Origin: Nitrospirota bacterium
GTDB lineage: Bacteria > Nitrospirota > Nitrospiria > 2-01-FULL-66-17
NCBI GenBank assembly: GCA_040757335.1
Contig: JBFLXB010000035.1
Coordinates: forward strand, 1-38,901
Length of the DNA stretch: 38,901 nt
Direction: 5' to 3'
The notes beneath the pieces were generated by a model. That model worked only from the letters and a program-made list of their open reading frames with translations, was not told the origin of the DNA and did no database searches. This document shows positions 85 to 1,382 of the stretch, piece by piece. The position numbers and the translations under genes are program-made. The stretch's first letter is position 1, and each line of letters opens with the position of its first letter.

Positions 85-89
85 GCCTC

Positions 90-118
90 ATAATACCACC
101 GTTCTATTACTTACGCAA
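90..118 (-). promoter_or_regulatory. Sigma-70-type promoter of the left-edge transposase gene
   Basis: On the minus strand TTGCGT (113-118) and TATTAT (90-95) are separated by 17 bases. The -10 ends 5 bases before the ATG at 84, which predicts a leaderless or nearly leaderless transcript. The whole site lies in an AT-rich pocket of an otherwise GC-rich region. Confidence 0.5.
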
Positions 119-144
119 AACTCAATAGTACCTTAAGGAGTTTT

Positions 145-207
145 CCAGTACGCTCCGGTTTCCTCCTCGCTGCGGCCTTGCGGCTGGAACTTTTTGAGCA
201 ACCTACC
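145..207. repeat. Intergenic repeat, copy A
   Basis: This non-coding segment begins CCAGTACGCTCCG and continues through a TCGCT-CG-CCTTGCG core to GGAACTTTTTGAGCAACCT. The first 13 bases and the CCTTGCG core recur at 32012-32051, upstream of the ATP-grasp gene. The last part (189-205) resembles the reverse complement of the IS left end at 38775 (GGACTTTTTCAGCACCCTG). A short inverted repeat, AAAACTC/GAGTTTT, lies just before it at 117-144. The stretch between the transposase fragment and the PilZ gene (85-368) holds only this repeat and two promoters. It looks like a dispersed extragenic or IS-derived repeat. Confidence 0.4.
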
Positions 208-285
208 GGCCTCTGAAGTTCTTCAGCATCTGCCCGTTCAGAGTTACCATCTCGGTCCTTTTCCGCCCCAGGCCCTGAGCCTCGC

Positions 286-313: not shown

Positions 314-368
314 GTTCGACGCACCGCGAAACCACCGATCCATGCTCGCGCACGGAGGCCGTGATCGT

Positions 369-1187
369 ATGCTGATGCTGGAGCCGACCACCGCGTACCC
401 GATCATCATCCACTTCAAAGACGGTCGGATCGATCGCGGCACGTTGCTGTCCTCGTTGTTGGCCGAAGGACCGCTCCGCTACCGTCCCCAGACCGCCGCC
501 GATGAACGACGCGGCGTGCCGCGCCTGCCGTTTCTGACCGAGGTCAAAGTCGACCGCGTCATGGTCGGCCGCGCCAGCGACGTGAGCGTGCGAGGGATGT
601 TTCTGGAAACACTGACGCCGTACGCGGTCGGGACCGTGCTCCACGTCGCGCTCCGGGTCGACACCGAGACCATCGAGGCCGAGGCGCGCGTGGTGTTTGC
701 GGACCCCGGGGTGGGGATCGGGCTTGAGTTCAAACGGCTGTCCGCCGCGGTCCGGCATCGCCTGGAGGCGGTCTTGCACCGGCTGGCCAAAACCACCCAG
801 GCTTCGCCGTCTTCGGGTCGCCGAACCACTGAACGACGCGATGACGCCGGGACCGCGCGACGGCCATGGGACGGACGCAAAGGAGAGCGCCGGTCCCGAA
901 CAGGCCTCCATGAGCTTCCGCCCGCTGAGGTTGACCTGGCCAACGTCAAGTCGGTTTTTTTTGTGGATCCCGCCCCGAACGACAACGCCCTCCCGGAGTG
1001 GGGAGCGGATCCCATGGACCGGCAGGTCACCGTGGAGTTCCGGGACGGCGAGACGATCCACGGGACGCTGCGCGAGATGTCGCCGGATGCGCTGGGCTTT
1101 TTCGTCGCGCTTCGCCTCGACGAACGCAACACGCACAGCGTCTACGTGGTCAAGTCAGCGGTGAAAAGCATCCAAACCGTGTTCTAA
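369..1187 (+). CDS. PilZ domain protein (putative c-di-GMP receptor)
   Basis: 272 residues. PilZ domains bind cyclic di-GMP through an RxxxR arm and a (D/N)xSxxG motif. Here these are R48-GVP-R52 and D71-VSVRG76, at the expected spacing, inside a barrel-like region of roughly residues 45-135 (VGIGLEF follows). Short similar segments flank the domain: FKDGRIDRGTL near the N-terminus and FRDGETIHGTL near the C-terminus, suggesting two copies of a small beta-rich module. A variable charged linker (about 145-195) joins PilZ to the C-terminal copy. An earlier ATG at 342 is in frame, but GGAGG at 354-358 sits 10 bases before the ATG at 369, so that start is preferred. Nothing nearby reveals the controlled process. 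The stop codon overlaps the first bases of an inverted-repeat element. Confidence 0.85.
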   Translation: MLMLEPTTAYPIIIHFKDGRIDRGTLLSSLLAEGPLRYRPQTAADERRGVPRLPFLTEVKVDRVMVGRASDVSVRGMFLETLTPYAVGTVLHVALRVDTETIEAEARVVFADPGVGIGLEFKRLSAAVRHRLEAVLHRLAKTTQASPSSGRRTTERRDDAGTARRPWDGRKGERRSRTGLHELPPAEVDLANVKSVFFVDPAPNDNALPEWGADPMDRQVTVEFRDGETIHGTLREMSPDALGFFVALRLDERNTHSVYVVKSAVKSIQTVF

Positions 1188-1365
1188 CCCGGATTATTCA
1201 TGAACCTTCTACTGCACCCGCGGATACGCCGCTGCAACGGGCGATCTCGCCGCTCAGTCGGTCAACGTACCGCAGAGAGTACGCCTCCCTCCTTCGCGGC
1301 TCCAAGCACCCGTTTCGCTGGCGTCTGCGCGGGTTCGCGACGAACGTTCATAAATAATCTGGGTT
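1186..1365. mobile_element. MITE-like element with 20-bp terminal inverted repeats
   Basis: The left end AACCCGGATTATTCATGAAC (1186-1205) is the reverse complement of the right end GTTCATAAATAATCTGGGTT (1346-1365) at 18 of 20 positions. The 180-bp element has no credible coding sequence. Its AT-rich ends contrast with a GC-rich interior. It lies exactly between the PilZ stop codon (the TAA supplies the first AA of the left repeat) and the convergent TPR gene. A non-autonomous transposable element fits best, but a large hairpin acting as a bidirectional terminator is an alternative. No flanking target duplication is obvious. Confidence 0.6.
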
Positions 1366-1382
1366 GAAACAGGGACGACTCC

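Follow-up and report, generated by a model that had tools for sequence, protein, structure and literature searches.

A MITE with IS1380-type ends beside the stop codon of a PilZ gene in a Nitrospirota bacterium, and the YTAR junctions of its family

The window, a 38,901-nucleotide stretch of DNA from a Nitrospirota bacterium, carries a gene coding for a PilZ/DUF6982 protein and a convergent gene, and the interval between them is occupied by a small repeat-bounded segment (Table 1). An earlier note on this DNA, made from the sequence alone, had reported 20-bp terminal inverted repeats with 18 matches, and these repeats are real: the left one, AACCCGGATTATTCATGAAC (1186-1205), agrees at 18 of 20 positions with the reverse complement of 1346-1365, AACCCAGATTATTTATGAAC. 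An inverted pair of this quality within 260 bases was reached by 1 of 100 dinucleotide shuffles of the region 701-1700. The inverted repeat runs on to 33 nt with 82% identity, a second and inner pair of arms (26 nt, 77%) was found at 1216-1241 and 1309-1334, and the folding of 1180-1372 gave one long hairpin of -86.7 kcal/mol (z -6.7). The AT-rich ends in GC-rich DNA and the lack of coding potential were also described correctly: GC content is 40% in the 20-bp end, 59% in 1186-1365 and 65% in the window, and the open reading frames that overlap the element are mechanical only, no gene of its own being found. The 180-bp extent given to the element (1186-1365) holds for the repeat and fails for the borders, which were reset by comparison with other copies to a core of 176 bp, the 4 bases outside it being target site. 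At this locus the flanks CTAA and TTGA are equal at two of four positions, so the target copy is not a clean one and its right member has presumably decayed.

Table 1. Features of the PilZ gene end and of the adjoining element (G000, the window's own genome; G001, a genome of the same family).
Feature	Position	Strand	Remarks
PilZ/DUF6982 protein gene (Pfam PilZ, DUF6982)	342-1187	+	C-terminus intact; TAA at 1185-1187
Left target-site copy CTAA	1184-1187	+	Contains the PilZ stop TAA; family junction motif YTAR
MITE core	1188-1363	.	176 bp, without own gene; full-length copies (176 or 177 bp) 88-92% identical in G000, G001 and G002; one long hairpin
Left terminal inverted repeat, CCCGGATTATTCATGAA	1188-1204	+	Same or similar ends in other copies
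Right terminal inverted repeat	1347-1363	-	2 mismatches versus the left one
Right flank TTGA, expected place of the second target copy	1364-1367	.	2/4 match with the left copy; presumed decayed
Convergent gene, 208 aa	1383-2009	-	TPR matches weak, under the Pfam cut-offs; separated from the element core by 19 bp; lies next to PilZ in G001 too

In the earlier note, the left repeat was read as starting within the TAA of the PilZ gene, so that the end of the element would supply part of the stop codon and its insertion might have created or preserved this stop. With the borders at 1188 and 1363 and the YTAR rule of the family described below, the TAA belongs to the left 4-bp target copy CTAA and thus falls outside the element. 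The comparison of the PilZ C-terminus with orthologues, which had been proposed as a check, was carried out. The G001 orthologue (51% identity) has the same convergent neighbour across a gap of 64 bp without the element, and its C-terminus, ...KSIQTVL followed by TAG, stops at the same end residue as ...KSIQTVF followed by TAA in the window. A second orthologue, in G004 (41% identity), stops at the same place with TAA. The conserved end in both genomes rules out the element as the maker of the PilZ stop and supports the other half of the suggestion, namely that the stop was kept by the insertion.

The position of a very stable hairpin between two convergent genes is also compatible with a transcription terminator or an mRNA-stabilising hairpin of the PilZ gene that merely resembles a transposon. 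We consider this explanation extremely unlikely. The region 900-1700 has no terminator-like site (a GC stem followed by a T run; 0 sites), on which ground an intrinsic terminator was rejected, and no promoter-like site was found in it either. A known RNA family was rejected in the same way, 1000-1600 giving no Rfam match up to E 1. Moreover, copies of the element lie beside many unrelated genes, and the element is absent after the PilZ orthologue of G001.

The family was then followed in the window's own genome (3.56 Mb, 61 contigs), where the search for other copies asked for in the earlier note revealed six two-ended MITE copies, the window included (L049, L050, L051, L053, L054 and L092; the other five on contigs C2, C30, C14, C3 and C6). 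Two one-ended copies (L052 on C11, L055 at another site of C3) and shorter fragments elsewhere were also detected. A single copy conserved in position, which the earlier note held to be the mark of a terminator, is therefore not the situation of this multi-copy element. The full-length relative with a transposase, also proposed as a check, was found on contig C18 (14855-16527). It is an insertion sequence of 1,673 bp with CTAG on either side, each of its ends differs by one mismatch from the consensus of the MITE ends, and its 17-bp ends are nearly those of the MITE. Its transposase of 471 aa matches the IS1380 model NF033539 with 365.5 bits (cut-off 180) and PF13701 with 418 bits. The left end of the window MITE aligned with the two ends of this IS over 17 bp (94%) and 13 bp (100%), with an E value of 0.003 in each case, and no match below E 0.8 was obtained between the IS interior and the window MITE. 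Derivation of the MITE from the C18 IS by internal deletion alone was consequently rejected, since no more than the ends match. Further pieces of transposase lie at contig ends in C29, C56, C2 and C16. The MITE-like reading of the earlier note is thus borne out by the multiple copies in the genome and by an IS1380 relative of full length with nearly the same ends. A module of about 62 bp is nested at differing positions in four G000 MITE copies (L051 on C14, L052 on C11, L053 on C3 and L054 on C6, twice in the latter), and sequences related to it (76-82% identity) stand alone on C34, C40, C19 and C1.

Among the 58 genomes searched, own genome included, 25 match the element at E≤0.001, and all of them are members either of the window's family or of one other family (f2) of the same class. 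A pattern derived from the core recovered nine stretches in a named genome collection, which may omit near relatives, and all nine are from Nitrospirae MAGs. The elements are 176-177 bp long in the window's family and mostly 173, 188-189 or 209 bp in f2; by eye, the consensus sequences of three length classes have ends and parts of the core in common. No IS1380 transposase match at E≤1e-20 was obtained in 9 of 12 genomes searched, several of which contain dozens of ends, suggesting that the copies there are immobile at present unless another transposase acts on them. Outside G000, five IS1380 transposase loci were found, one in G018 and four in G049; a CTAG followed by a similar end (3 and 4 mismatches) was seen at two of the five, both in G049, and not at the other three. 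A part of the MITE core (query 61-118) recurs with 82-83% identity at 1501-1558 in both L081 and L084, within a repeat with different ends (CAGG...GAAAAAG); L085 and L087 look like these two by eye, and two families may have this core in common.

The junctions were analysed on 115 two-ended elements from 14 genomes, of which 80 came from 89 loci and 35 from 36 further loci. In the first set, a two-ended pair was lacking at 11 of the 89 loci under the thresholds applied; in the second, 36 pairs came from the 36 loci, one of them (L232), a spurious overlap, being removed, and L261 gave none. The 115 include the full-length IS as well as a MITE that has an IS110 element within it; a gene for an IS110-family transposase (PF02371, PF01548) lies within the MITE copy L146 (1235-2581; G010, contig C43). 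No two of the 115 are alike in both flanks and two pairs are alike in one flank, indicating that they represent separate insertions. A YTAR tetramer was found at both junctions of 79 elements, at one junction of 32 and at neither of 4, that is, at one junction or more in 111. The two flanking tetramers are identical in 55 of the 115 and equal at three or more of the four positions in 95. TAA or TAG is present on both strands of every YTAR, and the motif forms its own reverse-complement class.

This last property leaves room for another reading of the same flanks, in which the inverted repeats would be longer and have YTAR as their outermost 4 bp, the element thereby bringing half of each stop codon. 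YTAR being a self-complementary class, an arrangement of the type CTAG...CTAG fits both readings, and of the nine elements with non-palindromic YTAR on both sides, six have direct pairs and three have inverted ones, so that flank identity alone is weak evidence for a duplication. The point rests for this reason on the empty sites of one locus. In G047, the element L166 lies between two copies of TTAG at the stop of an SCP2 gene (...SLFPSLRP). Four element-free genomes, G081, G065, G064 and G058, have a single tetramer (CTAG, CTAG, TTAG and CTAA, respectively) at the place of L166, with alignment of both its flanks over 39-44 of 46 bases on the left and 31-36 of 40 on the right; the left flank of this site is itself the end of another repeat. 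The single YTAR of these genomes is the stop of the same SCP2 gene. Relatives without the element thus keep one YTAR at the same place (four genomes, one locus), and orthologous genes keep their stop without it, which makes the outer-repeat reading very unlikely. At the level of the family, with YTAR on both sides in 79/115 elements and one YTAR in the four element-free genomes at this one locus, the tetramer is a duplicated target site.

The SCP2 stop was examined on both strands at 20 loci, 19 of which hold the gene (L277 does not). By eye, an IS1380-type MITE end abuts the stop in 3 of the 19 (G047, G078 and G056), the end of a repeat beginning with CAGGCTGTT or similar in 6 (G027, G010, G063, G055, G071 and G066), the end of a repeat beginning with GAGTCTGTCCGAGTCAT in 4 (G081, G058, G065 and G064) and something else in the remaining 6, among which G072 has an end of the CAGGCTGTT kind a few bases off. 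The tetramer at this stop is not always YTAR, TTAT, TTAC and CTAT occurring too. Over all loci examined, YTAR precedes 14 of 18 ends of the GAGTCTGTCCGAGTCAT family and, with two patterns whose sets may overlap, 13 of 36 and 13 of 48 ends of the CAGGCTGTT family, against 0.26% of the positions of G027; several of these ends come from the SCP2 locus in different species and are not all independent, and most CAGGCTGTT-family ends are without a preceding YTAR. The 115 elements have 230 junctions, and at 11 of these a further end of this kind lies directly on the other side of the common 4 bp (one neighbour pair being counted from both sides), compared with 9 of 57,140 sampled positions. In locus L127 of G027, elements of 173 bp (1217-1389) and 188 bp (1394-1581) are placed back to back with a single CTAG between them. 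Elements of different families can thus insert one after another at the same motif. We put forward, tentatively and with slightly less than even confidence, that several unrelated MITE families in this class may use stop codons as renewable docking sites, in which motif and stop would be restored each time. Different families could then queue behind one gene without harm to its protein, and gene ends would offer mobile DNA permanent sites to occupy. Upstream of the PilZ gene, a repeat of about 60 bp (window 145-204) is covered wholly or partly by 28 of 32 other genome matches to window 85-240; visual comparison suggests a likeness to the end of the CAGGCTGTT family.

A gene stop falls exactly in the junction of 44 of the 115 elements (32/80 in the first set and 12/36 in the replicate, one of the 36 being spurious), or in 44/113 when the two pairs alike in one flank are collapsed. 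The genes were predicted with a crude codon-model gene finder, retrained between the sets, and both runs gave 32/80 with one member differing each way. A Pfam domain over cut-off is present in 37 of the 44 genes, which include those for chorismate synthase, CoaE, DnaJ, RNase PH and the small subunit of exonuclease VII. This frequency could reflect an active preference of the transposase or insertion complex for stop codons or gene ends, over and above the YTAR motif. The use of one stop serially by different families points in that direction, as do the controls: among YTAR sites located at stops or in non-coding DNA, those at stops are 101/453 in 400 kb of G027 (p 0.0005 against all elements) and 9/150 in the replicate flanks (p 4e-5 against the replicate), and the elements of G027 alone are at stops in 8 of 19 cases (p 0.048), with the reservation that, 82% of the control sequence being called coding by the gene finder, genes were missed and stops are probably underrepresented in the control. 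In the first-set flanks, stops account for 37 of 249 such sites and for 37 of 444 of all YTAR there. Against non-coding YTAR sites lying just past gene ends, on the other hand, no significant excess of exact stops was found within 1-30 bp (44:10 versus 101:29, p 0.36) or 1-100 bp (44:27 versus 101:83, p 0.19), and a weak one appeared within 1-300 bp (44:41 versus 101:155, p 0.03). Elements are commoner than control sites between convergent genes (20/115 versus 32/457) and rarer between divergent genes (13/115 versus 81/457), a picture also expected if insertions into genes and promoters are selected against. Since there is no excess over YTAR within 100 bp past gene ends, the motif together with the removal of harmful insertions is enough to explain the pattern at stops, and selection would be the reason why these positions are common. 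An active preference for stops is possible rather than demonstrated, and we regard it as unlikely.

At six other loci (L048, 3006-3926; L154; L156; L172; L231; L257), predicted genes enter the end of an element and terminate inside it, the stop being located 16 nt in (TGA of CATGA) or, for the full-length IS, 23 nt in. The last codons of these predicted genes, and their stop, do come from the element. The stop of an adjacent predicted gene thus lies within the ends of five MITEs and of the full-length IS, which affects annotation.

Taken together, the segment beside the PilZ gene is very probably a non-autonomous MITE of an IS1380-type insertion sequence, inserted in a YTAR tetramer whose copy on the gene side keeps the stop. 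An IS1380 transposase supplied in trans would recognise the 17 bp at each end and mobilise the element, which would insert into a YTAR tetramer, usually CTAG, and duplicate it. TAA or TAG being present on both strands of the tetramer, an insertion at a stop would leave a gene-side copy with a stop and the protein unchanged, and the same course is proposed for the end of the PilZ gene, where the stop was kept and not made. Because the motif would be restored at both ends, the same stop could take further insertions. A target motif with a stop codon on both strands would make insertion at gene ends silent and offers a simple and testable reason for the pile-up of elements there, and a stop that different families occupy in different species provides a natural archive of how insertion and selection have acted.

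MITEs derived from insertion sequences are well documented in bacteria (PMC2229807, PMC6382973). No description of the present family was met among titles and abstract beginnings on Nitrospira MITEs or REPs and on IS1380 with MITEs or CTAG, which does not establish its absence from print. Like RUP and MITEAba12, as presented in the sections consulted of these two papers, the present element is shorter than 200 bp, has inverted ends shared with an IS and belongs to a family that duplicates its target. The target of RUP includes TA, and the duplication is 9 bp long for MITEAba12 and 3-26 bp for YPAL (PMC2229807, PMC6382973); in contrast to these three as described there, the target tetramer of the present element itself has a stop codon on both strands. 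The likeness to the IS1380 family (NF033539; PF13701, DDE_Tnp_1_4) lies in the transposase of the partner IS, whose 1,673 bp are close to the 1,672 bp reported for IS1247, a member of that family with a 5-bp repeat (PMC3281130, in the portion available); the MITE differs in being without transposase, in having the ends alone in common with the IS and in its 4-bp YTAR target copy. The target of IS5, 4-bp Py-T-A-Pu with CTAG as the commonest (15 of 24 listed), is of the same type, with the same commonest tetramer, IS5 itself having a transposase of another family; the consequence for stop codons was not found stated in the part of that article consulted (PMC5493358). YTAR targeting is therefore already known from IS5, and it is the stop-codon consequence and the stacking, neither of which was found stated in the portions of the literature surveyed, that form the interesting part of the present observations. 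A further precedent is ISPsp10, of the IS5 family, for which the target site is reported, in the excerpt consulted, to provide a stop codon after insertion (PMC4133298): there the target completes the transposase gene, whereas the target copy described here keeps the host gene's own stop.
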